DNA from: Rhabdothermincola salaria
Lineage (GTDB): Bacteria; Actinomycetota; Acidimicrobiia; Acidimicrobiales; Acidimicrobilacustridaceae
Assembly (NCBI RefSeq): GCF_021246445.1
Contig: NZ_JAJQXW010000001.1
Coordinates: 496,001 to 560,000 of the forward strand
Direction of reading: 5' to 3'
DNA length: 64,000 nucleotides
Part shown: positions 40,550 to 64,000 of the stretch, one piece after another
Layout of the letters: each line of letters opens with the position of its first letter
How positions within the stretch are numbered: position 1 is the stretch's first letter
Position numbers and translations under genes: made by a program
Notes under the pieces: model-generated
Database searches by the model: none
What the model was told of the DNA's origin: nothing
What the model saw: only the letters and a program-made list of their open reading frames with translations

Positions 40550-40598
40550 GGTCGTGGACCCTACCGACGAGCGGCGCCGTGTCGGGGTGGAAGTCGTC

Positions 40599-40724
40599 GG
40601 GCTGGTCGGGGAGCGGGCTCGATGTGGCTGCGCCCCAGGGGCCGGACCGGGCAGGCTGGATGTTGGCGGGCTGGTCGGGGACCGGGCGCGATGTCGTCGG
40701 TCTCGAGGGATCGGACCGGGCGGG
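40599..40724. repeat. Imperfect ~69-bp direct repeat in a 415-bp gap
   Basis: Two copies start at 40599 and 40668 with GGGCTGGTCGGGGA-CGGGC and share most of the following ~50 bases. A perfect 13-bp tandem GGCTCGCGTCACA lies at 40761-40786. The gap between budA and the small HhH gene (40550-40964) has no convincing gene; the short frames across it mirror the repeat. Confidence 0.72.
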
Positions 40725-40964
40725 GGTGCCGGGCTGGCTCTGGGCGGGAGCGGTGGCGCCGGCTCGCGTCACAGGCTCGCGTCACAGCGGGGTGGCGGAG
40801 CGAGCCGGTGTGGAGTCGCGCGAGGATCGGCGCTGGTCGCGTCGGCGGCGTGGCCGCTGCGGTGGGGATGCCGGCCGGGGTGGCCGACGTCGGCTCCGCA
40901 GCGCGTCGTGCCGACCAGGCCCGGCCCGCCCGGCCCGATCCCCGAACGGAGGCTCTCGATCGCT

Positions 40965-41180
40965 GTGACGTCCAGGATCTTCGACATCCCCGGTCTGCCC
41001 GCTCCGGCCCGACGAGCGCTGGTCCGCAACGGCTTGACGTCGTTCGAGGCCGTGGCGGCCTGCGACGAACGAGACCTCGCGGTCCTCCATGGTGTGGGCC
41101 AGCGCACCATCGAGGTGTTGCGTCGTGCCCTGGCCGAGCAGGGTCGAGGCTTCGGCGACCCCACCCCTCCGACTCGCTGA
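40965..41180 (+). CDS. Small helix-hairpin-helix protein
   Basis: This 71-residue frame has a GTG start with GGAGG upstream at a longer than ideal distance. The sequence FDIPGLPAPARRALVRNGL then LAVLHGVGQRTIEVLRRAL contains two HhH-type turns, PGLP and HGVG, as in RNA polymerase alpha-CTD and other non-specific DNA-binding modules. It is likely a stand-alone nucleic-acid-binding or protein-interaction unit. Function unknown. Family-B hairpins follow its stop. Confidence 0.62.
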   Translation: MTSRIFDIPGLPAPARRALVRNGLTSFEAVAACDERDLAVLHGVGQRTIEVLRRALAEQGRGFGDPTPPTR

Positions 41181-41215
41181 CGGACTCGATCGCTGGCAGT
41201 CGCCGTGCGCGTACC

Positions 41216-41258
41216 TGTCGGATTTCGGCGCCGACAGGTGACGCCCTTTACCGCCAGG
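41216..41258. repeat. Dispersed hairpin family B, copy 4 (degenerate)
   Basis: It begins TGTCGG and keeps CCGACAGGTGACGCCCTTT and the right flank AGGTTCGCGAGGG of copy 3, but the left inner arm is altered. The left flank GCGCGTACC corresponds to GCGCGTAGT of copy 3. A second degenerate copy starts 61 bp downstream. Confidence 0.75.
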
Positions 41259-41276
41259 TTCGCGAGGGGGCGTGGC

Positions 41277-41318
41277 TGTCGGCGTTGGGCGTCGAGGGGT
41301 GGTGCTCCTTTTCCGACA
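41277..41318. repeat. Dispersed hairpin family B, copy 5
   Basis: The outer stem TGTCGG / CCGACA is perfect and the left inner arm GTTGGGCGTC is kept, with a changed loop. The right flank is GGTGCGCGAG. Together with copy 4 it forms a 61-bp tandem pair like copies 1 and 2, between two convergent genes. Confidence 0.75.
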
Positions 41319-49104: not shown

Positions 49105-49380
49105 GTGGGGCTTCCGGAGGCGGCGCCGAGCGGCGGTCTAGCATCGCCGGACTTGGGCGAGATGTGGAAGGGACCCGTGGTGTCCGATGCCGCTGCCTCG
49201 CGGCGCGCCTCCGCATCGGCCTCAGGGGGCGCGGCGGCGGAGGTCGCGGGCGCGGTGGCGGCAACCTGCACGGTTCCGGTGGACGTGGTGGAGATCGACG
49301 GCGGCCATGTCTCGATGCTGCGGTCGCCGCACGCCGAGGCGATGGCGGCGGCCATCGTCGAGCAGGTGGGGGCGTCGTGA
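49105..49380 (+). CDS. Short protein with thioesterase-like C-terminal segment
   Basis: This 91-residue frame has a very strong ribosome site (GAAGGAGGAG, 5-8 bases before the GTG). The last ~35 residues, VDVVEIDGGHVSMLRSPHAE followed by AMAAAIVEQ, closely resemble the end of alpha/beta hydrolase thioesterase domains, where the His of GGH is catalytic. The nucleophile and acid parts are absent, and the first 50 residues are Ala/Ser-rich. It is thus a truncated domain or a small regulatory peptide. It is coupled to the following glycosyltransferase by a GTGA overlap. Confidence 0.6.
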   Translation: MGLPEAAPSGGLASPDLGEMWKGPVVSDAAASRRASASASGGAAAEVAGAVAATCTVPVDVVEIDGGHVSMLRSPHAEAMAAAIVEQVGAS

Positions 49381-50528
49381 GGGTGCTGCGGGTGTCGCAC
49401 TCGGCGGTCGTGGGTGAGTGGCGTCGGCGGGAGGCCGAGCTGCGCCGCCTGGGGGTGGATGTGGCGCTGGTGTCGGCCAAGGCGTGGGACGAGGGCGGCC
49501 GCCGGGTGGTGCTGCAGCCCGAACCGGGGGTGACGGGGGCGCACACCTGGGGTCGCCATCCGTACCGGTTCGTGTACGACCCGCGGCCGGTGTGGCGGGC
49601 CCTGCGCTCGGGTCCGATCGACGAGCTCGACGTGCTCGACGTGCACGAGGAGCCGGCGGCCCTGGCCACGGCCGAGGTGCTGGCGCTGGAGTGGTTGTCG
49701 CGCCGCCTCCCCGGGCGGGGCCGTCGTCGGGGACGGGCCCGGGTGTGCCTCTACAGCGCCCAGAACATCGCCAAGCGCTATCCGCCGCCGTTCCGGTGGT
49801 TCGAGCGGTGGGCCCTGCGCCGGGCCGACGGCGTGCACAGCTGCAACGCCGAGGCCGGGCGGATCGTGGTGGCCAAGGGCTTCTCCGGGATGGTCGCCGA
49901 CCTCGGCCTGGGCGTCGACCCGCCCCGTGGCGCCCCTCCCGGCGCGTCCCCCGCGGCGTCGGGCGGCGAGTCGTCGAGCCACTCGAACGGTCCGTTGCGG
50001 GTGGGCTACGTGGGGCGCCTCGAGTCCTTCAAGGGGGTGGACGTGGCCGTGCGGGCGGTGGCCGCCGTGGCCGACGCCGAGCTGGTGGTGGTGGGCGACG
50101 GCCCCGAGCGGGGCGCCCTGGTCGCCCTGGCCGACCGGTCGGGGGTGGCCGATCGGGTGCGGTTCCGGGGCCCGGTCGACCACGACGACCTGGGAGCGGT
50201 GTACGCCGCCCTCGACGTGGTCGTCGTCCCATCGCTGGAGACGCCGGCGTGGGTCGAGCAGTTCGGTCGGGTGGCGGTGGAGGCCATGGCCAGCGGGGTG
50301 GCGGTGGTGGTGTCCGACAGCGGTGCCCTGCCCGAGGTGGTGGGCGACGGGGCCGAGGTGGTGCCGTGGGGCGACCCCGACGCGTTGGCCGCGGTGCTGG
50401 CCCGCCTGGCCGTCGACCCGACCGGCCGGGCCCGGTTGGCCGCCGCCGGACGAGCCCGGGCCGGGCACTTCACCTGGGCGGCGGTGGCGGCACGCCACCG
50501 GGCCCTCTACGACGAGGTGGTGGCGTGA
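49377..50528 (+). CDS. Glycosyltransferase family 4
   Basis: This 383-residue GT-B glycosyltransferase starts at the GTG at 49377. The acceptor half begins VRVLRVSHSAVVGEW; the donor half has RVGYVGRLESFKGVDVAVRA, DVVVVPSLETPAWVEQFGRV and the EAMASGVAVV helix typical of GT4 nucleotide-sugar binding. It probably transfers a hexose to a growing lipid-linked glycan at the cytoplasmic membrane face. Its start and stop both overlap neighbours as GTGA, so it is part of one translational unit. Confidence 0.9.
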   Translation: MRVLRVSHSAVVGEWRRREAELRRLGVDVALVSAKAWDEGGRRVVLQPEPGVTGAHTWGRHPYRFVYDPRPVWRALRSGPIDELDVLDVHEEPAALATAEVLALEWLSRRLPGRGRRRGRARVCLYSAQNIAKRYPPPFRWFERWALRRADGVHSCNAEAGRIVVAKGFSGMVADLGLGVDPPRGAPPGASPAASGGESSSHSNGPLRVGYVGRLESFKGVDVAVRAVAAVADAELVVVGDGPERGALVALADRSGVADRVRFRGPVDHDDLGAVYAALDVVVVPSLETPAWVEQFGRVAVEAMASGVAVVVSDSGALPEVVGDGAEVVPWGDPDALAAVLARLAVDPTGRARLAAAGRARAGHFTWAAVAARHRALYDEVVA

Positions 50529-53500
50529 CCGGGCCGGCCGCCCCCGCCCTGGCGCTCGACGTGGTGGTGGTGAGCCACCGCTCGGCCGACCACCTGGCCG
50601 CCTGCCTGGCCGGCCTACCGCCGGAGGCGCACGTGGTGGTGGTGGACAACGCCTCACCGGACGCGTCGGTGGCGGTGGCCGAGGCGGCCGGCGCCGAGGT
50701 GGTGGCCGGGGCGGTCAACGCCGGGTTCGCGGCCGGGGCCAACCGGGGGGCCGCCCTCGGGACGGGCGAGGCGGTGCTGTTCCTCAACCCCGATGCGGTC
50801 GTCGACGCCGACATGGTGCGGGCCCTGGTGCAGCGCCTGGTCGACGAGCCCGACCTGGCGGTGGTGTCGCCGCGGCTGCGCCACCCCGACGGCTCCCAGC
50901 AGCGGGTGTGGTGGCCGTTCCCGTCGCCGGCCTCGGCCTGGTCGGAGGCGATCGGTCGGCACCGGTGGCCGGCGGGACGCCGTGGGCCGTCGGGCCCCAG
51001 GGGCGGGGCCGACGACGGCGTCGGTGGCGCCGCCGGGAGAGGGTTCGTCATCGGGGCGTGCTTCTTGGTGCGCCGGTCGGTGTTCGACGCCCTCGGTGGC
51101 TTCGACACCCGGTTCTGGCTCTACGGCGAGGAGGCCGAGCTGTGCCGTCGGGCGGTCGACGCCGGCTGGCGGGTGGCCGTGGCCGACGACCTCGAGGCGG
51201 CCCACGTGGGTGGGGCCAGCGCCGCGCCGCTGGACCCGGAGGTGTTCGACCACTTCGAGCGGGGCGGCGAGCACTTCGTGGCCGTGCACGCCGGCAAGGC
51301 CGCCCTGGTCTCGTACCGACTTGGCCAGCTGCTGGGGGCTGGGGTGCGGGCGGTGGTGCCCGGCTCGCCCGTGCGCCGCACGTTGCACCGGCTGCGGTCG
51401 CGGCGCCTGGTCGCCCAGCTGGTGCGGCGGCCCACCTCGGTGGCGCTCGACAGCCCGGCCACACGGGCCCCCGGTCGGGGGCTGGTGGTGTGCTCCCTCG
51501 AGCCGTGGGACGAAGTGTGGCGGCGCAACCAGTTCCTGGTGGACACACTGCTGCGGCGCGACCCGGACTTGCGGGTGCTGTTCGTGGAGCCGCCGTTCGA
51601 CTGGGTGCACGAGCGCCGGCGGGGCGCCGGCCGCCGTCGCCGGCGGGGGTTGCGGCCGGTGCCTGGCGAGGGGCGGGTGGTGCGCGTCGAGCCCGGCAAG
51701 GGGTGGCCCCGCCACCTGGGCCCGCTGCGCCTGGGGACGCTGGCCGACCGGTCGCTGCGCCGCCAGGTGCGCGAGGCAGCCGACGAGCTGGGCCTGGTGG
51801 CGCCCCGGCTGTGGGTGAACGACGCCCACTACGCCCACCTGGCCACCCGCACCGGGTGGCCGGCGCTCTACGACGTGACCGACGACTGGTCCGAGGCCGG
51901 CCGTGGCGATCCCGCCGCGGCGCGGGCGGCGGCCCGGGTGCGCGCCGACGAGGCCAAGCTGTTGGCGGAGTGCGAGGCCGTGGTGGTGTGCTCCGAGGCC
52001 CTGGCCGGGCCCCGCCGGGCGGTGCGCCCGGACGTGGAGGTGATCCCCAACGGCGCTGATGTGAGCCGGCTCACGACCCCCCAGCCCCGGCCCGAGGCCA
52101 TGCCGCCCGCCCCCACGGCGGTGTACGTGGGCACCCTGCACGAGGACCGCCTCGACGTCGACCTGGTAGAGGGCCTGGCGGCCGCCCGGCCCGACATGGC
52201 GGTGGTGCTGGTGGGCCCGGACGCCCTGGCACCGGCGGCGCAGGCCCGGCTCGCCACCCACCCGAACGTGCACCTGGTGGGGGCCCGTCCCCAGGGCGAG
52301 GTGGCCGGGTGGCTCCAGCACGCGGACGTGGTGGTGGTGCCCCACGTGGTGTCGGCGTTCACCGAGAGCCTCGACCCGATCAAGGCCTACGAGGTGCTGG
52401 CCGTGGGCCGCCCCACGGTGGCCACGCCGGTGGCCGGGTTCCGCGACCTGGGCGACCCGGTGCGCACGGTGAGCGCCGAGCGGTTCGTGGCCACGGTCGC
52501 CGAACTGGTCGACGCCCGCCCCGTGGCCTCCCGGCCCCGGCCGGTGCCCACCTGGGACGAGCGGGGAGAGGCCTTCGCCGCCGTGCTCGACCGGTTGGGC
52601 CGCGCTGGCGGCCCTGGCCGCCACCGCGATCGTCCCCTGCGGGTGGCGCTGGTGACCCACTGCGCCCAGCTCGGGGGCGCCGAGCTGGCCCTCGAGCGCA
52701 TGGTGCCGGCGGTGCGGGCCCGAGGGGTGGAGGTGGTGGTGGTGCTCGGCGAGCACGGTCCGCTGGCCCACCGGCTGCGCACCGCCGGGGCCACCGTGCT
52801 CGTACGCCCCCTCGATCCCCGCCTCGGGGCCACCCGGCGCGACGAGGTGGTCGGATGGTCGGCCCTCTCCCGTGCCGCCCAGGCCGCCCGGGAGGTGGTC
52901 CGCCTACGCCGCCTGCTGGTGGAGGTGGGCGCCGACGTGGTGCACACCAACTCGCTCAAGGCCCACCTGTACGGCGGGCTGGCCGGGCGCCTGGCCGGGG
53001 CGCCGGTGGTGTGGCACGTGCGCGATCGCATCGCCGCCGACTACCTGCCCCGCCCGGCGGTGGTGGCGCTGCGGGCCCTGGCCCGGCGCCTGCCCTCCGC
53101 GGTGGTGGCCAACTCCGAGGCCACCCGGGCCACGCTCGGTGCCGAGGCCGCCCGGGCCACGGTGGTGCACGATGCCCTGCCCGCCGAGCTGGTGGGCGCG
53201 CCTCCCGGCCCGGCGGCGTCGCCGGGCGGGGAGGGCCCGGGCCGGTGGGGGGCGAAGACGTCCACCGAAGCGCCGGGGCCCCTCGAGGTGGTGATGGTGG
53301 GGCGCCTGGCCCCGTGGAAGGGTCAGCACGTGGTGGTCGACGCGGTGGCCCGGGCGTTCTCGCCGGGGATGGTGCGCCTGCACCTGGTGGGCGCCGCACT
53401 GTTCGGCGAGGACGACTACGAGGCGCAGCTGCGCGCCCAGGTCCGCCGCCTCGGCATCGACGACGACGTGGTGTTCACCGGGTTCGTCGACGACGTGCCC

Positions 53501-53833
53501 GCTCGCCTGGCCGCGGCCGACGTGGTGGTGCACGCGTCGGTGCTGCCCGAGCCGTTCGGGCAGGTGGTCATCGAGGCCATGGCCGCGGGGCGGGCGGTGG
53601 TGGCCGCCGACGCCGGCGGACCGGCCGAGGTGGTCACCGACGGCGTGGACGGGCTGTTGGTGGCCCCCGACGACGTAGATGCCCTGGCCGCCGCCCTCGC
53701 CCGGCTGGCCGCCGATGCGGACCTGCGGGCCCGGCTCGGCCGCGAGGCGGCGCGCACCGCGGCGGTGTTCACCCCGGCCGCGGTGGCCGAGCGCCTGCTG
53801 GGCGTCTACGAGTCCCTGCCCACCCGGCGGTAG
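50525..53833 (+). CDS. Three-module glycosyltransferase fusion (GT2 + GT4-like + GT4)
   Basis: This 1102-residue protein has three complete transferase modules. The GT2 rhamnosyltransferase-like part is residues 1-~280 (DVVVVSHRS, VVVDNASPD, LFLNPDAVVDADM, GGFDTRFWLYGEEAELC). A TuaH-like GT-B part spans ~317-690 (VVCSLEPWDEVWRRNQ, ALYDVTDDWSEAG, VIPNGADVS). A GT4 part spans ~704-1102 (RVALVTHCAQLGGAELALE, MVGRLAPWKGQHV, PEPFGQVVIEAMAAG). It could add three sugars in series. The start overlaps the previous stop as GTGA, and the 3' end overlaps the convergent GT gene by 28 bp. Confidence 0.92.
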   Translation: MTGPAAPALALDVVVVSHRSADHLAACLAGLPPEAHVVVVDNASPDASVAVAEAAGAEVVAGAVNAGFAAGANRGAALGTGEAVLFLNPDAVVDADMVRALVQRLVDEPDLAVVSPRLRHPDGSQQRVWWPFPSPASAWSEAIGRHRWPAGRRGPSGPRGGADDGVGGAAGRGFVIGACFLVRRSVFDALGGFDTRFWLYGEEAELCRRAVDAGWRVAVADDLEAAHVGGASAAPLDPEVFDHFERGGEHFVAVHAGKAALVSYRLGQLLGAGVRAVVPGSPVRRTLHRLRSRRLVAQLVRRPTSVALDSPATRAPGRGLVVCSLEPWDEVWRRNQFLVDTLLRRDPDLRVLFVEPPFDWVHERRRGAGRRRRRGLRPVPGEGRVVRVEPGKGWPRHLGPLRLGTLADRSLRRQVREAADELGLVAPRLWVNDAHYAHLATRTGWPALYDVTDDWSEAGRGDPAAARAAARVRADEAKLLAECEAVVVCSEALAGPRRAVRPDVEVIPNGADVSRLTTPQPRPEAMPPAPTAVYVGTLHEDRLDVDLVEGLAAARPDMAVVLVGPDALAPAAQARLATHPNVHLVGARPQGEVAGWLQHADVVVVPHVVSAFTESLDPIKAYEVLAVGRPTVATPVAGFRDLGDPVRTVSAERFVATVAELVDARPVASRPRPVPTWDERGEAFAAVLDRLGRAGGPGRHRDRPLRVALVTHCAQLGGAELALERMVPAVRARGVEVVVVLGEHGPLAHRLRTAGATVLVRPLDPRLGATRRDEVVGWSALSRAAQAAREVVRLRRLLVEVGADVVHTNSLKAHLYGGLAGRLAGAPVVWHVRDRIAADYLPRPAVVALRALARRLPSAVVANSEATRATLGAEAARATVVHDALPAELVGAPPGPAASPGGEGPGRWGAKTSTEAPGPLEVVMVGRLAPWKGQHVVVDAVARAFSPGMVRLHLVGAALFGEDDYEAQLRAQVRRLGIDDDVVFTGFVDDVPARLAAADVVVHASVLPEPFGQVVIEAMAAGRAVVAADAGGPAEVVTDGVDGLLVAPDDVDALAAALARLAADADLRARLGREAARTAAVFTPAAVAERLLGVYESLPTRR

Positions 53834-54837
53834 ACGGCGTCGAGGGCGTCGACGTGGCCCTCGATGGTGAAGGCCTCGGCCCACCGCTGGTGCAGGGCGT
53901 CGCCCACGCTCGCCTGCCGTCCCTCGTCGTCGGCCAGGGCCCGCAGCTCGGTGGCCGCCTCGGACGCCGACCCCGGGGTGAACAGCCCGCCGACCCCGGC
54001 CGAGCCGACGGTCTCGAGGTGGGCGCCGCCGGCGGCGGCCACCACTGGGGTGCCCGCGGCCATGGCCTCCACCACGGTGAGGCCGAAGGGTTCGGCGGGG
54101 GCGGGGGCCACCACGATGGACGCCTCGGCCAGGCGGCGGGGCACGTCGCCGACGAACCCGGCGAAGCGCACCGAGCCCTCGACGCCCCCCGAGCGGGCCA
54201 GGGCCTCGAGGCGGGGGCGCTCGGCGCCGTCGCCCACCACGTCGAGGTGCCAGCCCTGCTCGGCCAGGCCGGAGGCGGCCCAGGCCCGCAGGGCGGTGGC
54301 GGTGTCCTTCTCGGCCTCCAGACGTTGGGCGACGAGCACCACCGGCCGGCGGGGGCGCGGCGGCTGGGTCCACGGCACCCCGTTGGGCACCACGTGCACG
54401 CGGGGGTCGCCGAGGTCGAGCCCGGCGCGCTCGGCCACGAAGGCGCTGATGGCCACCTGGGCGGCGAGGAACCGGGGGAGGAGGCGGTAGAGGCGGGCCC
54501 GGCGGCGGCCGGCGCCGCGCTCCTGGGCGAAGTGCACGGTGGCGACGACGGGGGCGTGGTGGCGGGGCCGGGAGGCGACGGCGGCCACCTCGGCGGCGGT
54601 CATGTGGGCGTGCACCACGTCGGGTCGCTGCGAACCCAGCGCCCGGGCGGCGGCCGCCGTTGTCGAGGCGGGGGCCCACTCGGCACCGGCGCCGTCCAGC
54701 GCGGCGGTCATGGGCAAGTGGGCCCCGCCCAGCACGGTGACCTGGTGGCCGAGCTCGGCCTGGCGGGCGGCCACGTAGGTGACGTAGCGCTCGACGCCGG
54801 CGAAGGCGTCGGTGCACACCACGTGCACGACCCTCAT
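53806..54837 (-). CDS. Glycosyltransferase family 4
   Basis: This 343-residue GT4 enzyme starts at the ATG at 54837 (MRVVHVVCTDAFAGVERYV). Donor-domain motifs are VVLVAQRLEAEKDTATALR, GDGAERPRLEALAR and PAEPFGLTVVEAMAAGTPVV. It is the only minus-strand gene inside the plus-strand glycan block, and its last 28 bases overlap the end of the three-module transferase. The sugar is unknown. Confidence 0.9.
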   Translation of the reverse strand: MRVVHVVCTDAFAGVERYVTYVAARQAELGHQVTVLGGAHLPMTAALDGAGAEWAPASTTAAAARALGSQRPDVVHAHMTAAEVAAVASRPRHHAPVVATVHFAQERGAGRRRARLYRLLPRFLAAQVAISAFVAERAGLDLGDPRVHVVPNGVPWTQPPRPRRPVVLVAQRLEAEKDTATALRAWAASGLAEQGWHLDVVGDGAERPRLEALARSGGVEGSVRFAGFVGDVPRRLAEASIVVAPAPAEPFGLTVVEAMAAGTPVVAAAGGAHLETVGSAGVGGLFTPGSASEAATELRALADDEGRQASVGDALHQRWAEAFTIEGHVDALDAVYRRVGRDS

Positions 54838-54954: not shown

Positions 54955-55935
54955 ATGGCCGCCGCCTTTCGTCGAGTCCTGCCCGCGGGGCTCAAGGGCC
55001 GGGTGCGCGAGGCCATCCGGCGCACCGAACGGGGCCGGCGCCTCACCGACGACATCGTCACGCCGACGCCCGAGAAGGCGGCGGGCACGCCCGGTGCGGT
55101 CCACGGTCCGGGCATCCCGATCCTGGCCCTGATGGCCACGTGGAACGAGGAGGAGATCGCCTACGCGTCGGTGCGCCACGCCCTCGCCCTCGGGGTGGAC
55201 GCGGTGTTCGTGCTCGACAACGCCAGCGACGACGCCACCCGCACCGAGGTGGAGGCCGCCGGCGCCACGGTGGTGATGACCTACGCCACCGAGCAGTTCG
55301 ACGAGGCCTTCAAGTACGAGCTGGTCAACCGGCAGATCCCCCGCCTCACCGCCGAGCGGGGCCTCGACCGGGCCTGGTGGCTGATGCTCGACGCCGACGA
55401 GTTCCTGGACGTCCCGGGTGGCTCGCTGCCCGGCTTCCTGGCCGGCGTGGAGGCCGAGGCGAGGGTGGTGGGGGCCCGGGTGTTCGACCACTACCCCTCC
55501 GCCCCCGACGGCTACGTGGCTCGCACGAACCCGTTGGCCCAGCAACCGCTGTGCCGGGAGGTGGGCTACGACGCCTGCCGGGCCGGGCACCACAAGCACC
55601 CGCTGTTCCTGGTCGACGCCGACGCCCCGCCGATCTCGGTGTCGCCGGGGTTCCACACCCTGCGGGCCCGGGGGCGACTGCGCGAGAGCGCCCGCAGCGT
55701 GGTGCTGCACCACCACCCGCTGCGCGACGCCCAGGTGGCTCGGCGCCGCCTCGCCGCCCTGGCGGCCCGTGGCACCACCGCCGACAGCCGCCACCGCCTG
55801 CAGGCCGACGGCCACATGCGGGCCCGTCTGGCCTCCCTCGACGCCGTGTACGCCGGCGACTTCGACGCGGTGATCGACCACCGCACCGGGGGGCGGGGCA
55901 TCCGGGTGCATCCGTGGCCGGAGGTGGCGCCGTGA
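54955..55935 (+). CDS. Glycosyltransferase family 2-like protein
   Basis: This 326-residue protein belongs to the glyco_tranf_2_4 type: ILALMATWNEEEIAYASVRH, VFVLDNASDDATRTEVEAAG and WWLMLDADEFLDV (the DxD-type metal site) are clear. The C-terminal part has His-rich segments (AGHHKHPLFLVD, VVLHHHPLRDAQV). It is soluble and probably acts on the cytoplasmic face. The next gene starts inside its stop codon (GTGA). Confidence 0.87.
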   Translation: MAAAFRRVLPAGLKGRVREAIRRTERGRRLTDDIVTPTPEKAAGTPGAVHGPGIPILALMATWNEEEIAYASVRHALALGVDAVFVLDNASDDATRTEVEAAGATVVMTYATEQFDEAFKYELVNRQIPRLTAERGLDRAWWLMLDADEFLDVPGGSLPGFLAGVEAEARVVGARVFDHYPSAPDGYVARTNPLAQQPLCREVGYDACRAGHHKHPLFLVDADAPPISVSPGFHTLRARGRLRESARSVVLHHHPLRDAQVARRRLAALAARGTTADSRHRLQADGHMRARLASLDAVYAGDFDAVIDHRTGGRGIRVHPWPEVAP

Positions 55936-57116
55936 CCTGGTGGCACCTCACCATGCCGTTCTCCACCGACGGCAGCGCGGTGAACAACGTGATCCGCGAG
56001 GTCACCCGGGCGGCGGCGGCAGACGGCATCGATTCGGTGGTGGTGGGCTCGCACAACCGCACCTACGAGTTCCCCCACGCCCGGGTGGAGACGGTCGACC
56101 ACGCCGCCCACCTCGACCACGAGTACCTGACCCGCCCGCAGATGCTGGCCGACGCCGCCCTGGGCCGGGTGGGCCGGGCCCGGCCGTGGGCGGGGCGCCT
56201 CTACCGGCCGGCGGCCGAGCAGCTGGGCTCGGTCGACGGGCCGGTGTTCGTGCACGAGGGGTTCTACGGGGCGGTGGCCCCGTCGCTGGTGCGCGCCACC
56301 GGCTACGACGGCGGGTTGTTCGTGTACCTGCACGCCCAGGTGTCCAAGACGTACTCGCGGCGCGAGCTGCGGCGCCTGCTCGACCCGGTCGATGCCGTGG
56401 TGTGCGTGTCGGGCGCCATGCGCGACGTGCTCGCCGACCGTCTCGGCGGGGGCCGGTGGGCCGACCGGCTGGCGGTGGTCAACAACGCGGTGGACGTGGA
56501 CCGGTTCACCCCGGCAGTCGCGCAGCCCCACGCCGACGGGTCGGGGCCGCCGGTGGTGCTGTTCGTCGGGGCCATGATCCCCGCCAAGGGCCCCGACGTG
56601 CTCCTCGACGCCCTGGTGCTGCTGGCCGAGCGGGGGGTGGAGGTGCAGGCCCGTTTCGTGGGCAGCTCCACCCATGCCCCCGGGCTGCCGCTGAGCCGGT
56701 TCGAGCGCCGGCTGCGGCGCCGAGCCGAACGCCTGGGCGACCGGGTGACGTTGGTGCCCTACGTGCCCAACGCCGAGGTGCCCGAGCTGTACCGGGCCGC
56801 CGACGTGTTGGTGGTGCCCAGCCAGTTCGCCGACCCGTGCCCGTTGGTGGTGCTGGAGGGGATGGCCTCCGGCCTGGCCGTGGTGGCCACCCCGCGCGGT
56901 GGCGCCCCCGAGATCGGCGCCGACGCAGTGGACTACGCCGACGGGGCCGAGGGCCTGGCCGCGGTGCTGGCCGTGCTGGCCACCGACCCGGAGCGCCGGC
57001 GGGCCCAGGGTGAGCGCGGTCGCCGCCAGGCCGAGGCCTCGACGTGGGCTCACCGTCTCGAGCGGCTGCGCGCCGTGGTCGACGCGACGGCGGCGGGCGC
57101 GGGGTCGGCATCGTGA
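55932..57116 (+). CDS. Glycosyltransferase family 4
   Basis: This 394-residue GT-B enzyme starts at the GTG at 55932. Its donor domain has VVLFVGAMIPAKGPDVLLDA, YVPNAEVPELYRAADVLVVP and PLVVLEGMASGLAVVATPRG. The acceptor half contains VNNVIREVTRAAAADG and QVSKTYSRRELRRLL. It sits in a chain of GTGA-overlapping genes between the GT2-like and sulfotransferase genes. Donor and acceptor are unknown. Confidence 0.9.
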   Translation: MTWWHLTMPFSTDGSAVNNVIREVTRAAAADGIDSVVVGSHNRTYEFPHARVETVDHAAHLDHEYLTRPQMLADAALGRVGRARPWAGRLYRPAAEQLGSVDGPVFVHEGFYGAVAPSLVRATGYDGGLFVYLHAQVSKTYSRRELRRLLDPVDAVVCVSGAMRDVLADRLGGGRWADRLAVVNNAVDVDRFTPAVAQPHADGSGPPVVLFVGAMIPAKGPDVLLDALVLLAERGVEVQARFVGSSTHAPGLPLSRFERRLRRRAERLGDRVTLVPYVPNAEVPELYRAADVLVVPSQFADPCPLVVLEGMASGLAVVATPRGGAPEIGADAVDYADGAEGLAAVLAVLATDPERRRAQGERGRRQAEASTWAHRLERLRAVVDATAAGAGSAS

Positions 57117-58027
57117 GCCCCGAGCCGACCGAGCCGACCGAGCCGACCGACGCCACCGCAGCGGCCGGAGCCCGGCCCGCGGTCGACCCCGGGGGCGAGC
57201 GGCTGCGCCCGCTGCGCCCGGACTGGCTGATCATCGGCGCCCAGAAGTGCGGGACGACGTCGCTGGCGGTCGCCCTGGGCCGGCACCCCGACATCTTCGT
57301 GCCGGCGGGCAAGGAGGCCCACCACTTCGGCACGGTGCACGACGCCGGGGTGGGCGGTGAGGACTACGCCGGGTTCTTCGCCGGATGGCAGGGCGAGCGC
57401 CTGATCGGTGAAGCCACCCCCGAGTACCTGTACCTGCCGTCGGCGCCCCGCCAGATCCTCGGCTATCTGCCGGAGGTGAGGCTGGTGGCCATGCTGCGCG
57501 ACCCGGTGGACCGGGCCTGGTCGGCGTACTGGCACGGGGTGCGCACCGGCGTGATCCGAGGCAGCTTCGAGCAGGCCCTCGACGACGAGGCGCGGGTGCT
57601 CGGCCGGGGTCGCTACAGCTTCACGTCGCTGGTCGACCGGGGCCGCTACGTCACCCAGCTGCGGCGTTACGAGGCGGCGGGCCTGGACCGGGCGGCGCTG
57701 CACGTGGTGATCTTCGAGGAGCTCGTGGCCGACCCGGTGGCCGGGGTGGAGGCGGTGCAGCGCTTCCTCGGGGTCGAACCGCTGGCGCTGGGCCTGGAGC
57801 TGCGCAACCCGGCGCGCCTCAATCGCCTGCCGGCGGTGCTGCGGGGCCCGGTCTGGCGCCGGCGGGGCACCCGGTGGGGGCGCCATGTCTACGGTCGCAG
57901 CCTGGTGCCCTTCACCCCGCCGCCGATGGCGCCGGCCACCCGGGCCTGCCTGGTCGAGGCGTTCGCCCCGTACAACGAGGCCCTGGCCACCTGGCTCGGC
58001 CGCGATCTGCCCTGGAGCACACCGTGA
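57113..58027 (+). CDS. PAPS-dependent sulfotransferase
   Basis: This 304-residue protein starts at the GTG at 57113. The 5'-phosphosulfate-binding loop is IIGAQKCGTTSL (residues ~40-51), and the 3'-phosphate-binding region is MLRDPVDRAWSAYWHG. FEELVADP and the final RNPARLNRLP are typical of bacterial carbohydrate sulfotransferases. It should transfer sulfate from PAPS to a sugar hydroxyl, making a sulfated surface glycan or glycolipid. The N-terminus has an E-P-T repeat (PEPTEPTEPT). Both ends overlap glycosyltransferase genes. Confidence 0.92.
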   Translation: MSPEPTEPTEPTDATAAAGARPAVDPGGERLRPLRPDWLIIGAQKCGTTSLAVALGRHPDIFVPAGKEAHHFGTVHDAGVGGEDYAGFFAGWQGERLIGEATPEYLYLPSAPRQILGYLPEVRLVAMLRDPVDRAWSAYWHGVRTGVIRGSFEQALDDEARVLGRGRYSFTSLVDRGRYVTQLRRYEAAGLDRAALHVVIFEELVADPVAGVEAVQRFLGVEPLALGLELRNPARLNRLPAVLRGPVWRRRGTRWGRHVYGRSLVPFTPPPMAPATRACLVEAFAPYNEALATWLGRDLPWSTP

Positions 58028-59067
58028 GTGCCGGCGCCGGCGCCCGCCCGACGGTGTCGGTGGTGATCCCCACCGCGGGCGAGCATCGCCGCTACCGCTT
58101 GCAGCTGGCCCTGTTGTCGTTGCAACGGCAACTGTTGCCGGACGATCACCTCGAGGTGGTGGTGGTGCTCGACGGCGAGGACCCGGGCGACTACGTGGTG
58201 GTGGCCGACGTGGGCCTCGACGTGACCTTGCTGGCCCAGCCCCAGGCGGGACCGGCCACGGCGCGCAACACGGGGTGGCGGGCGACGTCGGGTGACGTGG
58301 TGGCCTTCCTCGACGACGACGTGGCGGTCATGCCGGGGTGGCTCGACGACCTGCGTACGTTCTTCGCCGAGCACCCCGGGGTGGCCGCCGTCGGCGGCAC
58401 CATCGAGCCGCTGCACCCCCGCAACGTGGTGAGTCGGATGATGACCGACTTCGGCCACCTCGACCACCGCCGCGGGCCCCACGGCAAGCGCCTGCTCACC
58501 GCCAACGCTGCTGTCCGGCGCCCGGCCCTCGAGGCCGTGGGCGGGTTCGACGAGTCGTTCCCGCTGGCGGCCGGGGAGGACATGGACCTCTCCGACCGGC
58601 TGGGTCGGGCCGGCTTGGTGGTGACCACGACCGAGGGGGCGACCGTGCTGCACGGGCACCCCCGCCGCCCCCGCTCGATGGTGGCCACCGCCCGCCGCTA
58701 CCGGGCCGGAGGGATTCGACCGGATCTCGACGAGCAGGGGAGCGCGCCCTCGCGGACGCCGTCGGGACCGTCGGTGGTGCCCGGACCGGCAACCGCCCGT
58801 CCGGGGGCCTCGAAGCGCGCCGTGACGGCGGCGCGGCGGGTGGTGGCCGACCGGGTGCACCGTCCGGGTCGTCACCCGGCGGTGGTCGACGTGGTGGACC
58901 TGGTGGTGTTCGGTCTGCCTCAGCTGCGCCACCTGCCTGACCTGGTGGCGCAGGCGCGGGCCGGCCGCACCCGTCCCGGGCCGCTCACCGCGCTGGTGGA
59001 GGCGCTGTTGGAGCTGCGGTGGCGGGTGGAGTTCACCCGCCCGGCGGTCAGGATCGAGCGAACGTGA
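58024..59067 (+). CDS. Glycosyltransferase family 2
   Basis: This 347-residue GT-A enzyme starts at the GTG at 58024. VSVVIPTAGEHRRY, GPATARNTGWRATSGDVVAF and FLDDDVAVMPGWLDDL give the nucleotide-sugar and DxD metal sites; GGFDESFPLAAGEDMDLSDR is the acceptor-side ED motif. The C-terminal ~100 residues are basic and may associate with the membrane. It is the last gene of the plus-strand block and converges on the minus-strand export genes. Confidence 0.9.
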   Translation: MSAGAGARPTVSVVIPTAGEHRRYRLQLALLSLQRQLLPDDHLEVVVVLDGEDPGDYVVVADVGLDVTLLAQPQAGPATARNTGWRATSGDVVAFLDDDVAVMPGWLDDLRTFFAEHPGVAAVGGTIEPLHPRNVVSRMMTDFGHLDHRRGPHGKRLLTANAAVRRPALEAVGGFDESFPLAAGEDMDLSDRLGRAGLVVTTTEGATVLHGHPRRPRSMVATARRYRAGGIRPDLDEQGSAPSRTPSGPSVVPGPATARPGASKRAVTAARRVVADRVHRPGRHPAVVDVVDLVVFGLPQLRHLPDLVAQARAGRTRPGPLTALVEALLELRWRVEFTRPAVRIERT

Positions 59068-59147
59068 CGAGCGGCGTGTGGTCGCCGTCGTCGGCCTCCC
59101 GGAGTGCGCCGGGAACGTCGGACGACGGGCTCTTGGCCCGCGGTGGC

Positions 59148-60122
59148 TCAGCGGCGGGTGAGGCGACGGAGGCGCTCGGCGGGCGGTGAGGTGGCGGTCA
59201 CCTCGGTGGCCACGCCGGCCAGGTAGGCGACGTGGCGCACGGCGGGGCGGGGGTCGTCGCCGCGCACCAGGTGCACGCCGGCGGCGGCCGCGGTGCGGCA
59301 CGCGGCCCGCAGGGCGGCGGCGAGGCGGATGTCGTCGGCCACGAGCCCGGGGTGGCGGCGGGCGAAGCCGACGAGGCCGCGCCCGTGGAGGAAGGTCTTG
59401 GCCAGCAGGCCGCCGACGGTGGGGGTGAGGCGGTAGTCCACGCGGGCGTCGTCGACCCACACGAAGGCCACGCCGGCCTCGTGGGCACAGCCCTGCAGGT
59501 CGACCTCCTCGAAGCCGACGGCGTGGATGTCTTCGCGGAAGCCGCCGAGGCGCCCCCACAGGGCGCGGGGCAGGGCCAGATTGGCGCCCCAGCCGTACAC
59601 GAAGCCGTTCGCTCCCTCGGCGGGGGCGGGCAGGGCGAACTGCCAGCGACGGGAGCGGGGGCCGCTGAGGGCGGTGGGGTCGAGGGGGCCGGCGGCGATG
59701 CGGTCGGGGCCGTGGCGCAGGGTGCGCCAGTGGGCGTCGAGCCACCCGGGGGTGACGGCGTCGTCGGCGTCGCAGTAGGCGAGGATGCGGCCTCGGGCGG
59801 CGGCGGCGCCGGCGTTGCGGGCCCGGTTGGAGCCGGGCACCGGGCCGGCGTCGACCACCCGCACCGGCACCCGGTGGCCGAGGGGGTGGGCGGCCACCAC
59901 CGCGACGGTGGCGTCGGTGGAGCCGTTGTCGGCCACCACCACCTCCCAGCGGCACCGGGTGGTCTGGGCGGCGAGGGCGTCGAGCTGGGTGGCGATGGTG
60001 GCGGCACCGTCGCGCACGGGGATCACGACGGTCACGTCGACGGTGTCGCGGGCCGTGTCACTGGCTGTGTCCCGGGCCGTGTCGCCGTCCGGCCCGGGGT
60101 CGGGTGCCTGCCCTGCGGTCAC
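59148..60122 (-). CDS. Glycosyltransferase family 2
   Basis: This 324-residue GT-A enzyme starts at the GTG at 60122, which overlaps the preceding stop. VTVVIPVRDGAATIATQLDA, VVVADNGSTDATVAVVA, ILAYCDADDAVTPGWLDA (DxD) and GGFREDIHAVGFEEVDLQ are the family motifs. Its N-terminus has a D-T-A-R-D-T repeat before the first strand. It is the last gene of the minus-strand block. Confidence 0.9.
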   Translation of the reverse strand: MTAGQAPDPGPDGDTARDTASDTARDTVDVTVVIPVRDGAATIATQLDALAAQTTRCRWEVVVADNGSTDATVAVVAAHPLGHRVPVRVVDAGPVPGSNRARNAGAAAARGRILAYCDADDAVTPGWLDAHWRTLRHGPDRIAAGPLDPTALSGPRSRRWQFALPAPAEGANGFVYGWGANLALPRALWGRLGGFREDIHAVGFEEVDLQGCAHEAGVAFVWVDDARVDYRLTPTVGGLLAKTFLHGRGLVGFARRHPGLVADDIRLAAALRAACRTAAAAGVHLVRGDDPRPAVRHVAYLAGVATEVTATSPPAERLRRLTRR

Positions 60123-61201
60123 GATCCCAGCGCGGCGCGCAGCTCGTCGAGGTAGCCGTGCCCGTGGCGCTGGTCGGGTTCGAGGTGGTTGCCCTCGGCC
60201 CATTCGTTCCAGGACTTCACGAACAGCAGGCGCTGCTCGGCGGGGAGCCCGGCGATGGCGTCGAGGTGGCCGAGGGCGGCGTCGACGTGGGTGCGGAACT
60301 TGGCCGGGGTGGAGCCGTGGGCGACCACGCCGCGGCGCCCGGAGCGGGGGGTGTTGTCCCAGTTGGGGTACACGCAGGGCAGCGCCGGGTGCTCGACGGT
60401 GGAGGCGGGGTGGGCGACGGGCTCGGTGGCGTAGGGGTAGATCTCGGGCAGGCCCAGCTTGCGCAGCACCCGCATGCGACGCCGGGCCCACGGCGACGTG
60501 TCGAGGGGGAGGCGCATGGCGCAGGTGGCATCGAAGCCGTCGGCGGCGGCGCGGCGGTAGGAGGGCCCGAGGCCGACGAGGTCGGCGACCTCGGCCACCA
60601 GGTAGAGGCCGCCGAGGTCGGCGTCGTGGGCCATGGCCTGCCAGCGCTCGACGAAGGCGGCGGCGTCGGGCAGGTGCTCGGGGCGGAACACGTAGAACAG
60701 CGGACGGCCGTCGACGCGCACGTAGCGGGGATCACGGAAGGCGTCGAGCAGGTGGTCGAAGTGGGCCCGCTCGTCGTCGGCGCCGGGGTAGGACTGCTCG
60801 ATGAGCACCCGTTCGGGGGCGCCGTGCCACACGCCGGACCAGCTCTGGTTGGCCCAGGCCAGGGCGAAGCCGAAGTCGGGTCGGCCGCTGGCCAGCACCT
60901 CGGTGAAGGGGCGCTCCAGGATGCGGCGGCCGCCGAACCAGTAGTGCCAGTAGACGAAGGCCTCGAGGCCGGCGGCGCGGGCCATCTCGGCCTGGGCGGC
61001 GCGGGTCTCGGGTACCCGCAGGTCGTAGAAGCCGAGGTCGGCGGGCAGGTGGGGTTGGTGGTGGCCGGGGTAGCGGGGGCGGGCCTTGGCCGTGTTGGTC
61101 CACTCGGTGAACCCGGCGCCCCACCACTCGTCGTTCTCGGGTACGGGGTGGTACTGGGGCAGGTAGAAGGCCAGGGCCCTCGCTGCCGGGGCGTCGCTCA
61201 C
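60119..61201 (-). CDS. WbsX-like (GH99-related) polysaccharide biosynthesis protein
   Basis: This 360-residue protein matches the WbsX/GH99-like family: AFYLPQYHPVPENDEWWGAG, FTEWTNTAKARP, WHYWFGGRRILERPF and LFVKSWNEWAEGNHLEPDQR. Such proteins sit in O-antigen and rhamnan loci and are related to endo-mannosidases. They are thought to process or transfer glycan chains, but no activity is established for most. It starts at the GTG at 61201 inside the wzt stop. Confidence 0.93.
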   Translation of the reverse strand: MSDAPAARALAFYLPQYHPVPENDEWWGAGFTEWTNTAKARPRYPGHHQPHLPADLGFYDLRVPETRAAQAEMARAAGLEAFVYWHYWFGGRRILERPFTEVLASGRPDFGFALAWANQSWSGVWHGAPERVLIEQSYPGADDERAHFDHLLDAFRDPRYVRVDGRPLFYVFRPEHLPDAAAFVERWQAMAHDADLGGLYLVAEVADLVGLGPSYRRAAADGFDATCAMRLPLDTSPWARRRMRVLRKLGLPEIYPYATEPVAHPASTVEHPALPCVYPNWDNTPRSGRRGVVAHGSTPAKFRTHVDAALGHLDAIAGLPAEQRLLFVKSWNEWAEGNHLEPDQRHGHGYLDELRAALGS

Positions 61202-62499
61202 GCCCGTTCCGATCGCTCGGCGGCTGCGTCGCGGTCCCTCGCCGCAGTGTCAACGGCCCCGCCGCCCTGGACCGGCGGGCCGTTCTCCAGCTGGCGGTAG
61301 GAGAAGTCGGCCAACACCTGCCCGGTGATGGCGTCGGTGCCGGCGGGGTGGGGGTAGGGCAGCAGCTCGGGCACCTCGAACGAGCACACGTTCTCGACGA
61401 GGTCGAAGCGGTTGTAGGGGATGCCCACCTCGAGGCTGACGTGGTAGGTGCCCGGTACCAGCCAGGGGGTGGCGATGGTGAGCTCGGCGGTGAGGTGGCC
61501 GTCGACCTCGAACCAGTCGCCGGTGTGGCGTGAGTCGCAGACCACGACGGCTTCGCCGCGGCGGTTGCGCACCACGACCTGCACGTACACCCGGTGGCGG
61601 TCGTCGCCCTTGGCGCGCAGCGAGAAGCGCACCCGCTTGGGGGCGGCGGTGGTGGTGGGCTCGGAGACGACGGCCACGGACGTGACGGCCACGGGGGTGC
61701 GGGCCCGGGCCCGGGTGGTGGGGATCTCGCCGGAGTGGGTGTCGGCGCCGGAGGTGTCGAGGTAGTGGGCGATGGCGTCGTCGACGGGGCCGAGGTAGTC
61801 GCGCCGGCCCTCGACGAGGACCATGGCCGAGGTGCACAGGCGGGCGACGGAGTCGAGCTGGTGGCTGACGAAGAGCACCGTGCGCCCGTCGGCGGCGACG
61901 TCGTGCATCTTGCCCAGGCACTTGGCCTGGAACTCCTGGTCGCCGACGGCGAGGACCTCGTCGACGAGGAGGATCTCGGTCTGGAGGTGGGCGGCCACGG
62001 CGAAGGCCAGGCGCACGTACATGCCGCTGGAGTAGCGCTTGACGGGGGTGTCGAGGAAGCGTTCGATGCCGGCGAAGTCGACGATGGCGTCGAACTGACG
62101 GTCGATCTCGGTGCGGCGCATGCCGAGGATGGCGCCGTTGAGATAGATGTTCTCGCGCCCGGTGAGCTCGGGGTGAAAGCCGGTGCCGACCTCCAGCAGG
62201 CTGCCGATGCGGCCCCACAGGTCGATGCGCCCGGCGGTGGGCCCGGTGATGCGGGTGAGCAGCTTGAGCAGGGTGGACTTGCCGGCACCGTTGCGGCCGA
62301 TGACGCCCATGACCTCGCCGCGGGGCACGTCGAGGCTGATGTCGCGCAGGGCCCAGAACTCCTCGGTCTGGCTGCGGCGCAGGGGGTGGCGCAGGCGGTC
62401 GAGGGCGACCTGGGCCAGGGTGATGTGGTCGTTGTGGTGGTGGCGGATGGTGTAGGCCTTGGACAGGCCCTCGACGCGGATGGCGAGGTCAGATGACAT
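61198..62499 (-). CDS. wzt: Polysaccharide ABC exporter ATPase with Wzt-type C-terminal domain
   Basis: This 433-residue protein has one ABC cassette: Walker A GRNGAGKST (68-76), signature YSSGMYVRLAFAVAA, and Walker B ILLVDEVLAVGDQEFQ. The last ~160 residues (from about 265) form a beta-sandwich like the carbohydrate-binding Wzt_C domain (RVYVQVVVRN, GTYHVSLEVG), which in O-antigen exporters recognises the finished chain. It overlaps the permease stop by 11 bases and drives export of the glycan made by the neighbouring enzymes. Confidence 0.94.
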   Translation of the reverse strand: MSSDLAIRVEGLSKAYTIRHHHNDHITLAQVALDRLRHPLRRSQTEEFWALRDISLDVPRGEVMGVIGRNGAGKSTLLKLLTRITGPTAGRIDLWGRIGSLLEVGTGFHPELTGRENIYLNGAILGMRRTEIDRQFDAIVDFAGIERFLDTPVKRYSSGMYVRLAFAVAAHLQTEILLVDEVLAVGDQEFQAKCLGKMHDVAADGRTVLFVSHQLDSVARLCTSAMVLVEGRRDYLGPVDDAIAHYLDTSGADTHSGEIPTTRARARTPVAVTSVAVVSEPTTTAAPKRVRFSLRAKGDDRHRVYVQVVVRNRRGEAVVVCDSRHTGDWFEVDGHLTAELTIATPWLVPGTYHVSLEVGIPYNRFDLVENVCSFEVPELLPYPHPAGTDAITGQVLADFSYRQLENGPPVQGGGAVDTAARDRDAAAERSERA

Positions 62500-63334
62500 C
62501 GGCGAAGGCCCGTTCCATCCGGCTGAAGATGGCGATACCGGCGGCGAACACGGCGAGGGCGGCCCCGGCGGACCAGGCGGCGAGCACCAGCGAGGGTCGG
62601 GGGGTGCCGATGAGTGCCCAGCGCATGCCTTCGAGCAGGCCGGTGAGGGGGTTGAGCTCGAAGAAGATGCGCGAGCCCTCGGGGACGCTGGCCAGCGTGT
62701 AGGCGACGGGGCTGGCGAAGAGCAGGAACTGCACGGCCACGGGGAGGATGTACTGCACGTCGCGGTAGCGCACCATGAGGGCGCCGGCGGCCAGGCCGAC
62801 GCCGAGGGCCAGGGCCAGCACGAGCAGGAACCACAGCGGCAGGGTGAGCACGCCGAGGCCGGGGTGCACGCCGGTGGCGACGAGCAGCACGACGAGCAGC
62901 CCGAGCGAGACGGCCACGTCGACGAGCGTGGACAACATGGTGGACAGCGGCAGCATCACCCGGGGGAAGTACACCTTGGACACGAGCTGGGCGTTGCCGA
63001 GCAGCGACGAGCTGGTGCGGGTGGTGACCTGGCTGAAGGTGGTCCAGGTGACCATGCCGGCGAGGGTGAACACGAAGTAGGGGATGCCGGCGGGGGCCTC
63101 GAGGTCGGCCACGCCGCCGAAGACGAACGACAGCACGCCGGCGCCGAGGAGGGGCACGAGGATCACCCAGACGGCCCCGAGCACGGTCTGGCGGTAGCGC
63201 AGGGTGATGTCGCGGGCGGCGAGGCGCACCAGCAGCTCGCGGAACTCCCACAGCTCGCGGGGACCGGGGGGCAGCCACGAGCGCTTGGGCCGGATGGTGA
63301 GCAGCGGCTTGGGGAGTGGAGTGGGGTCGGTCAC
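62489..63334 (-). CDS. wzm: Polysaccharide ABC exporter permease
   Basis: This 281-residue ABC-2 type permease has about six transmembrane helices, preceded by the amphipathic motif ELWEFRELLVRLAARDITLR and RYRQTVLGAVWVIL. FELNPLTGLLEGMRWAL is the conserved segment of the Wzm/TagG/RfbA group. With Wzt it forms the transporter that moves undecaprenyl-linked polysaccharide across the membrane. It starts at the GTG at 63334, overlapping the sugar transferase stop. Confidence 0.93.
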   Translation of the reverse strand: MTDPTPLPKPLLTIRPKRSWLPPGPRELWEFRELLVRLAARDITLRYRQTVLGAVWVILVPLLGAGVLSFVFGGVADLEAPAGIPYFVFTLAGMVTWTTFSQVTTRTSSSLLGNAQLVSKVYFPRVMLPLSTMLSTLVDVAVSLGLLVVLLVATGVHPGLGVLTLPLWFLLVLALALGVGLAAGALMVRYRDVQYILPVAVQFLLFASPVAYTLASVPEGSRIFFELNPLTGLLEGMRWALIGTPRPSLVLAAWSAGAALAVFAAGIAIFSRMERAFADVI

Positions 63335-64000
63335 GTGAGGGACGACGGTTCGGCGGCGAACGTCGCCGCCGGGCCGTCGGTCCGGGTGGGGTCGGCGTCG
63401 CCGGTGTTCGCGGGGTCGGTGAGGTCGACCACGTCGGGTGCCTCGTCGGCCCGGGCCCTCATCTGCCGCCACACGACGTGAGGGGTGCGGGCCAGGATCT
63501 GCAGGTCGAGGGCGAGGGACCACTGCTCGACGTAGCGCAGGTCGAGCTCGGTGTACTTGCCGAAGTCGGCGTCGTTGCGTCCGTCGAGCTGCCACAGCCC
63601 GGTGATGCCCTGGGGCATCTCGACCCGGCGGTGGAGCTGGGCGGGGAACTGGGCGTCCTCGGCGGGGAGGGCCGGGCGGGGCCCGACCAGGCTCATGTCG
63701 CCGGCGATGACGTTGAGCAGCTGGGGCAGCTCGTCGAGGCTGGAGTGGCGCAGCCAGCGCCCGATGCGGGTGACCCTGGGGTCGTCGGCCATCTTGAACA
63801 GGGGGCCGAGGCGTTCGTTGCGGTCGAGCAGGGCGGGCTGGTGGTGCTCGGCGCCGCACACCATGGTGCGGAACTTCAACATGGTGAACAGCCGGCCGTC
63901 CTGGCCCACCCGCACCTGCCGGAACAGCACCGGGCGTCCGGAGCTGGCCAGGATGGCCACGGCGATGGCGGCCATGAGGGGCGACAGGACGACGAGCATC
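63331..64000 (-). CDS. Initiating sugar-phosphate transferase (WcaJ/WbaP type), 5' end outside window
   Basis: This is the C-terminal part (at least 222 residues) of a polyprenyl-phosphate hexose-1-phosphate transferase. FRQVRVGQDGRLFTMLKFRT, RIGRWLRHSSLDELPQLLNV, GDMSLVGPRPALP and ITGLWQLDGRNDADF are the catalytic-core motifs. The usual N-terminal KRxFD and the start of its membrane helix lie beyond base 64000, so the gene is cut by the window edge. It starts assembly by loading the first sugar phosphate onto undecaprenyl phosphate. The C-terminal ~30 residues are a variable tail. Confidence 0.93.
   Translation of the reverse strand, partial: MLVVLSPLMAAIAVAILASSGRPVLFRQVRVGQDGRLFTMLKFRTMVCGAEHHQPALLDRNERLGPLFKMADDPRVTRIGRWLRHSSLDELPQLLNVIAGDMSLVGPRPALPAEDAQFPAQLHRRVEMPQGITGLWQLDGRNDADFGKYTELDLRYVEQWSLALDLQILARTPHVVWRQMRARADEAPDVVDLTDPANTGDADPTRTDGPAATFAAEPSSLT

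Follow-up and report, generated by a model that had tools for sequence, protein, structure and literature searches.

A carbohydrate-type sulfotransferase gene in a variable glycan cassette beside a Wzm/Wzt exporter of Rhabdothermincola salaria

Bacteria with both a sulfated capsule and an ABC exporter are already known. In Vibrio sp. KMM 8419 and Cobetia marina KMM 1449 the capsule structure has been reported, and the gene cluster is described as holding an ABC exporter as well as a sulfotransferase and PAPS genes (PMC11641403, PMC11766843). Neither account describes a sulfotransferase as assigned by experiment, and the Vibrio paper describes the variable region of a related strain as being without a sulfotransferase (PMC11641403, PMC11766843). 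A different route, through Wzx and Wzy, is reported for synechan, the product of the xss locus of Synechocystis PCC 6803, where neither blooms nor accumulated EPS are reported to form once xssA is mutated (PMC8205485). The wbsalmo O-antigen locus of Aeromonas salmonicida combines Wzm and Wzt with a sulfotransferase-domain gene that follows wzt, and the O-antigen structure as reported has, according to its authors, no such sulfated residue (PMC4483657). In Gram-negative systems of the ABC-dependent kind, a domain of Wzt is described as reading a modified chain end, the modification being a methyl group, phosphorylation or a Kdo-like sugar (PMC9445017).

Here we describe a locus of Rhabdothermincola salaria that joins this known class of sulfotransferase-bearing polysaccharide loci, using a window of 64,000 nucleotides (the whole stretch of DNA analysed). 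The conserved end of the locus is formed by a plus-strand glycosyltransferase read from its sequence as GT4 type (49377..50528, start 49377 or 49383), an 1102-aa fused glycosyltransferase on the same strand with a GT2 stretch followed by two group-1/GT4-type stretches (50525..53833, Pfam) and, convergent with the latter, a minus-strand GT4 glycosyltransferase (53806..54837, Pfam). The first gene of a variable cassette follows on the plus strand and encodes a GT2-like glycosyltransferase (PF13704, 54955..55935, start 54895 or 54955), succeeded on that strand by a GT4 glycosyltransferase (55932..57116, Pfam), a PAPS-type carbohydrate sulfotransferase (57113..58027; Pfam, phmmer, alignment and fold) and a GT2 glycosyltransferase (58024..59067, Pfam). 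The minus strand then carries a further GT2 glycosyltransferase (59148..60122, Pfam), a WbsX-family protein (60119..61201, PF14307, 412.6 bits), Wzt with an ABC ATPase and a C-terminal cap-binding-like domain at about residues 256-400 (61198..62499; Pfam, fold), the ABC-2 membrane subunit Wzm (62489..63334, PF01061, 68.3 bits) and an initiating sugar-phosphate transferase that continues beyond the window edge (63331..63999, TIGR03025). The part of this last protein inside the window scores 249.4 bits, under the model's cut-off of 295.55 (NCBIfam), and its complete gene encodes 259 aa (L011:3331-4110).

The sulfotransferase frame is intact, begins with GTG and encodes 304 aa, overlapping by 4 bases both the stop of the GT4 gene before it and the start of the GT2 gene after it. 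A gap of 80 bases separates the plus-strand glycosyltransferase run from the converging minus-strand exporter run; with the sulfotransferase in one arm and the exporter in the other, the locus is not a single operon in R. salaria. The first-pass annotation had described this arrangement, a sulfotransferase within overlapping glycosyltransferase genes that converge on an exporter accompanied by a WbsX-like protein and an initiating transferase, and it is confirmed, with exact coordinates. Chance or a high-GC frame artefact was ruled out as the origin of the sulfotransferase frame by Pfam, fold and gene overlaps. The Wzm and Wzt pair, together with the initiating transferase and glycosyltransferases, constitutes the gene set of an ABC-dependent pathway (Pfam, NCBIfam); among the ten locus proteins scanned with Pfam there was neither a Wzx flippase or Wzy polymerase nor a methyltransferase or kinase domain. 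A second polysaccharide gene set directly follows, just beyond the window (L011:4216-17915, G000:C1:560216-573915), with families recognized by eye as Wzz/tyrosine-kinase-like, polymerase-like, a second initiating transferase, an aminotransferase and an epimerase. Elsewhere on the same contig (L012:9321-12532, G000:C1), frames resembling a CMP-sugar cytidylyltransferase and a sialic-acid synthase adjoin an insertion-sequence-like frame pair, likewise by eye.

The envelope that would receive the product sets this locus apart from its counterparts. Searches of the genome found no match to LpxC (4 of 14 controls positive) or Omp85 (7 of 14 controls positive) and seven matches to WhiB, for which Corynebacterium glutamicum was the only positive among the 14 controls. 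Together these results make the host, most likely, an actinobacterium of the monoderm type, lacking an outer membrane, and make an LPS O-antigen an unlikely identity for the polymer, a point that the first-pass annotation missed. The product of A. salmonicida, in contrast, is an LPS O-antigen (PMC4483657), the Vibrio and Cobetia products are Gram-negative capsules (group 3, with Kps genes in Cobetia) whose PAPS genes are reported within the cluster rather than on another contig as in R. salaria (PMC11641403, PMC11766843), and synechan is made by an organism with an outer membrane (PMC8205485). In Synechocystis, a plasmid-borne sulfotransferase (pSYSM 40411-41316), which gene order suggests to be XssA, is 28% identical to the R. 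salaria protein over residues 33-303 and, as here, adjoins glycosyltransferase genes among other polysaccharide genes. A homolog on Sinorhizobium meliloti pSymB similarly sits in a polysaccharide locus with glycosyltransferase, O-antigen-ligase and chain-length genes. The first-pass annotation had called a sulfated polysaccharide 'not a known structure for this group', which a narrow literature search of titles and the starts of abstracts did not contradict, weak evidence of absence as such a search is.

The identity of the sulfotransferase was examined at the level of family, fold and residues. The protein matches Pfam Sulfotransfer_3 with 50.8 bits (cut-off 27) and Sulfotransfer_1 with 38.7 bits (cut-off 22), and no NCBIfam model matches it at E≤0.001. 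Among solved structures, phmmer returned 14 sequences at E≤0.001, the best being 3rnl (Alicyclobacillus, called Sulfotransferase), followed by heparan sulfate 3-O- and N-sulfotransferases. An AlphaFold2 model built with 32 aligned sequences reached a mean pLDDT of 89.7, and its Foldseek ranks 1-21 consist of 3rnl and the heparan enzymes (3-OST, NDST; E 1.8e-18 to 4.2e-9), with polyketide, tyrosine and small-molecule sulfotransferases starting later, from 1.9e-5. The modelled fold is thus nearest to carbohydrate sulfotransferases, not to the small-molecule type, with identities of 19-24% to the heparan enzymes and 32% to 3rnl (Foldseek). PAPS-dependent carbohydrate sulfotransferases are typified by a 5' phosphosulfate loop GxxKxGT, an Arg and a Ser that bind the 3' phosphate, and a catalytic Glu. 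In the 32-sequence alignment, six positions do not vary (G42, T48, R129, P131, R134, Y179), at least 90% of sequences share E68 and S137, and position 45 is Lys in the R. salaria protein and most rows and Arg in some. In the phmmer alignment, E68 falls on the EVHFF stretch of 3-OST-1, in keeping with K45, E68, R129 and S137 being the donor-binding and catalytic residues, by analogy with the heparan enzymes. The fold, the donor loop, an LRDP motif and the EVHFF-aligned Glu are all common to the R. salaria enzyme, the heparan sulfate 3-O-sulfotransferases and NDST, and 3rnl. No membrane segment is evident (hydropathy over 19 residues peaks at 1.44), as expected of an enzyme that draws on cytoplasmic PAPS, and the protein probably adds sulfate to the exported chain.

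Its sulfate donor can be accounted for by the genome. A search for PAPS synthesis genes, the check suggested by the first-pass annotation, found CysD (537.2 bits) and a fused CysNC (1074.4 bits) on contig C2, both above cut-off (NCBIfam); the model matched by the latter is that of the bifunctional sulfate adenylyltransferase/adenylylsulfate kinase, and its APS kinase domain scores 230.4 bits. APS kinase occurs in 51 of the 61 genomes, the own genome included (E≤1e-20), and also where the sulfotransferase is missing, so the PAPS genes are not specific evidence for glycan sulfation. Moreover, the same PAPS pool serves six other PF13469 sulfotransferases of the genome, each of which outscores the 57113-58027 protein on that model. 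Three PF13469 sulfotransferase genes other than 57113-58027 lie inside 26 kb at G000:C1:1831217-1856861, and the genome has four inositol-phosphatase-family matches, among which a PAP phosphatase may be. The CysNC type (L013:3928-6773, G000:C2) is patchy, its N-terminal part being 90-91% identical in another genus (G014, G004) and only 68% identical in a genome of the same genus (G001), where CysN and APS kinase appear to occupy separate frames. CysH (L002:1423-2106) shows CC and CxxC motifs, which are marks of APS reductases. It scores above the cut-offs of two phosphoadenylyl-sulfate reductase models (225.9 vs 154, 175.5 vs 165.1) and below those of APS_reductase (186.2 vs 235.3) and PAPS_reductase (157.1 vs 254.2) in NCBIfam. 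An argument from the motifs that assimilation needs no PAPS is therefore partial, since NCBIfam favours the phosphoadenylyl-sulfate reductase models, and was set aside.

Relatives of the sulfotransferase were surveyed with genes called by a simple codon-bias caller made for this analysis rather than a published one. Matches at E≤1e-10 occur in 25 of 61 genomes, own included, and the clade that holds the 57113-58027 protein, moderately supported at its base (82/80), comprises seven sequences drawn from five family genomes (G000, G003, G006, G025 and G036). Three of these five have Wzm/Wzt in the same place. In the own genome (G000) the two lie 5 kb apart, in G025 the sulfotransferase is divergent from Wzm/Wzt, and in G003 sulfotransferase, GT2, Wzm and Wzt are consecutive on one strand with overlapping ends; the surroundings in G036 (a 5.9-kb contig) and G006 (contig ends) are too short for Wzm/Wzt to be judged. 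The GT2 gene 58024-59067 also has homologs that adjoin the sulfotransferase in G025 (52% identical over 223 aa) and G003 (48% over 331 aa), suggesting that the two may travel together. Of the 50 sulfotransferase matches listed, 7, spread over six genomes, have a Wzm relative (79 places) no more than 20 kb away, against about 1.0 expected from random placement; matches that share a genome are not independent, and the other 43 have no Wzm relative nearby. In another family of the order (G039), a more distant sulfotransferase (L113:6073-7083) lies 1.6 kb from Wzt (E 2.9e-9 in a profile search). Beyond these genomes, phage records gave no sulfotransferase match, 223 plasmid records matched by tblastn, all below 60% identity, and a genome-contig scan confined to close relatives found six distant sulfotransferase loci that are 28-32% identical (blastp).

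The enzyme could instead act on another product, such as a glycolipid, the repeat unit of the neighbouring Wzz/Wzy-like set or a small molecule, with the Wzm/Wzt polymer only loosely related to it. The second polysaccharide set, as read by eye, lies within a few kb and could own some of the genes, a close homolog on one G006 contig overlaps a Wzx-like flippase gene, and the S. meliloti and Synechocystis homologs belong to loci with O-antigen-ligase or flippase genes. Against this stand the 4-base overlaps with both flanking genes, the close homologs adjoining Wzm/Wzt in G003 and G025, and a fold nearest to carbohydrate enzymes rather than the small-molecule type, and we consider such a product unlikely. 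A different doubt concerns the enzyme itself, which might be decayed or repurposed and add no sulfate, as may hold in A. salmonicida judging from the account of that locus (PMC4483657). Tandem copies in relatives, as well as a partial second copy at a G006 contig end that has an internal stop, indicate that turnover may be high. In R. salaria, though, the frame is intact, the donor-loop and catalytic-site residues are kept and the fold is confident, and the six close homologs (43-54% identical) in four other family genomes have no internal stop, all of which makes decay very unlikely. The tandem close relatives are found in G036 (L058:2769-4494) and at two places in G006 (L059:17506-18860, L060:17393-18549); each G006 pair has one member reaching the contig end.

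Within the relatives searched, the genus is represented by one further genome, G001. Comparison with it, which rests on this one genome pair, places the sulfotransferase in the variable part of the locus. At one end, the 49377 glycosyltransferase is 58% identical in G001, the fused glycosyltransferase (50525-53833) 61% over 1088 aa and the 53806 GT4 protein 60%; at the exporter end, Wzt is 61%, Wzm 73% and the initiating transferase 68% identical. Of the six genes in the middle (54955-61201), four are without a G001 match at E≤1e-5 (best or second match). The PF13704 GT2-like protein (54955-55935) has no match among the G001 genes called, the GT4 protein (55932-57116) and the GT2 protein (58024-59067) have weak local matches (29% over 208 aa and 32% over 145 aa, respectively), and the sulfotransferase has no match in the G001 genome at E≤1e-10. 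The middle of the G001 locus holds instead six glycosyltransferase genes, a methyltransferase-domain protein, an 88-aa FkbM-type fragment and a hexapeptide transferase. On sequence comparison the sulfotransferase is a cassette gene that is absent from the same-genus genome, which the first-pass annotation had missed. Moreover, identity to G001 splits within Wzt, with 195 of 245 residues (80%) in the ATPase part and 52 of 155 (34%) in the tail, as would be expected if the tail follows chain structure. With the ends kept, the middle swapped and the tail diverged, sulfation would belong to a serotype-like cassette.

The chain-recognition domain that the first-pass annotation had assigned to Wzt as Wzt_C is backed by fold and falls short by Pfam score, at 22.7 bits under the cut-off of 30.4. 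For the tail model (178 residues, 5 sequences, pLDDT 77.0), Foldseek ranks 1-10 are taken by Wzt structures of A. aeolicus (E 1.3e-6 to 1.7e-5), whose TM-scores by query length are a modest 0.49-0.54. The Wzt domains 5hnp, 5hno and 2r5o follow between ranks 14 and 36, interspersed with other beta-sandwich proteins. These matches to solved Wzt structures support a chain-recognition domain with the fold of the cap-binding domains of A. aeolicus, Klebsiella O12 and E. coli, here in an organism without an LpxC match. Sulfate might conceivably cap the chain, ending its growth and permitting export, with the Wzt tail reading the sulfated end. Structures matched by the tail include cap-binding 8dky, with bound methyl-mannose, and 5hnp, whose title names a Kdo-capped saccharide. 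Methyl, phosphate or Kdo are described as filling the cap role in known systems (PMC9445017).

Gene content points both ways here. Once glycosyltransferases and WbsX are set aside, none of the six cassette proteins other than the sulfotransferase is clearly a decorating enzyme, and the G001 cassette has methyltransferase-type genes alongside its diverged Wzt tail. In a Pfam scan of 20 chosen proteins from the Wzm loci of four relatives (G041, G004, G054 and G037), methyltransferase domains occur beside or near Wzm/Wzt in G041 and G004, in line with a capping role. The seven proteins of that scan chosen near Wzm/Wzt in G054 and G037 contain none, however, so a single capping enzyme in each locus does not hold as a general rule. 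Furthermore, the Wzt tails of G003 and G025, which are also encoded beside a close sulfotransferase, are unlike the R. salaria tail (no BLAST similarity at E≤1e-3), general decoration is suggested by the tandem sulfotransferases and by the homolog linked to Wzx, and a glycosyltransferase could add the cap. Tail charge, considered as a sign of sulfate binding, was rejected because the Lys+Arg count shows no clear difference from G001 (15 vs 13). A sulfate cap is on balance distinctly unlikely, and the narrower proposal that the sulfotransferase replaced a capping methyltransferase in this actinobacterial lineage, with a Wzt tail that follows the cassette and reads the sulfated end, is improbable as well.

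The computed results, namely the order of the genes, their families and folds, the PAPS genes, the differing cassette and the diverged Wzt tail, are best explained, with fair probability, by an enzyme that sulfates a lipid-linked polysaccharide in the cytoplasm before export by Wzm/Wzt, the sulfate being a variable, serotype-like decoration. The variability is suggested by the cassette position of the gene, as the two genomes compared within the genus carry different cassettes. In this pathway, the initiating transferase (63331) would prime the lipid carrier on the cytoplasmic side, and the fused and single glycosyltransferases would extend the chain. The 57113-58027 enzyme would then move sulfate from PAPS onto a chain sugar, still on the cytoplasmic side; we infer this activity along with the acceptor sugar and the position and amount of sulfate. 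The C-terminal domain of Wzt would read the chain end, and Wzm/Wzt would export the finished glycan. The genome has three LCP-type matches, and an LCP-type ligase probably then attaches the glycan to the cell wall, the likely end of the polymer. Of what an exported sulfated polysaccharide, as proposed by the first-pass annotation, would need, the locus genes, the exporter and PAPS synthesis are in place, and sulfate on the chain stays a prediction, with A. salmonicida as the counter-case.

Relative to the described systems, what is new here is a cassette difference coupled with a split in the Wzt tail, the single overlapping run of G003 and a monoderm, non-LPS setting. If the prediction is true, sulfated exported glycans would extend to monoderm actinobacteria without LPS. 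Should sulfate even act as an export cap, a cell that lacks LPS would add a further class to the known caps, which are methyl, phosphate and Kdo-like sugars. The natural pair of genomes with and without the sulfotransferase around the same exporter core offers a test bed for whether the Wzt tail reads a sulfated end. Sulfate would, if the prediction holds, belong to a cassette that differs between species, as expected under phage or predator pressure on surface glycans.
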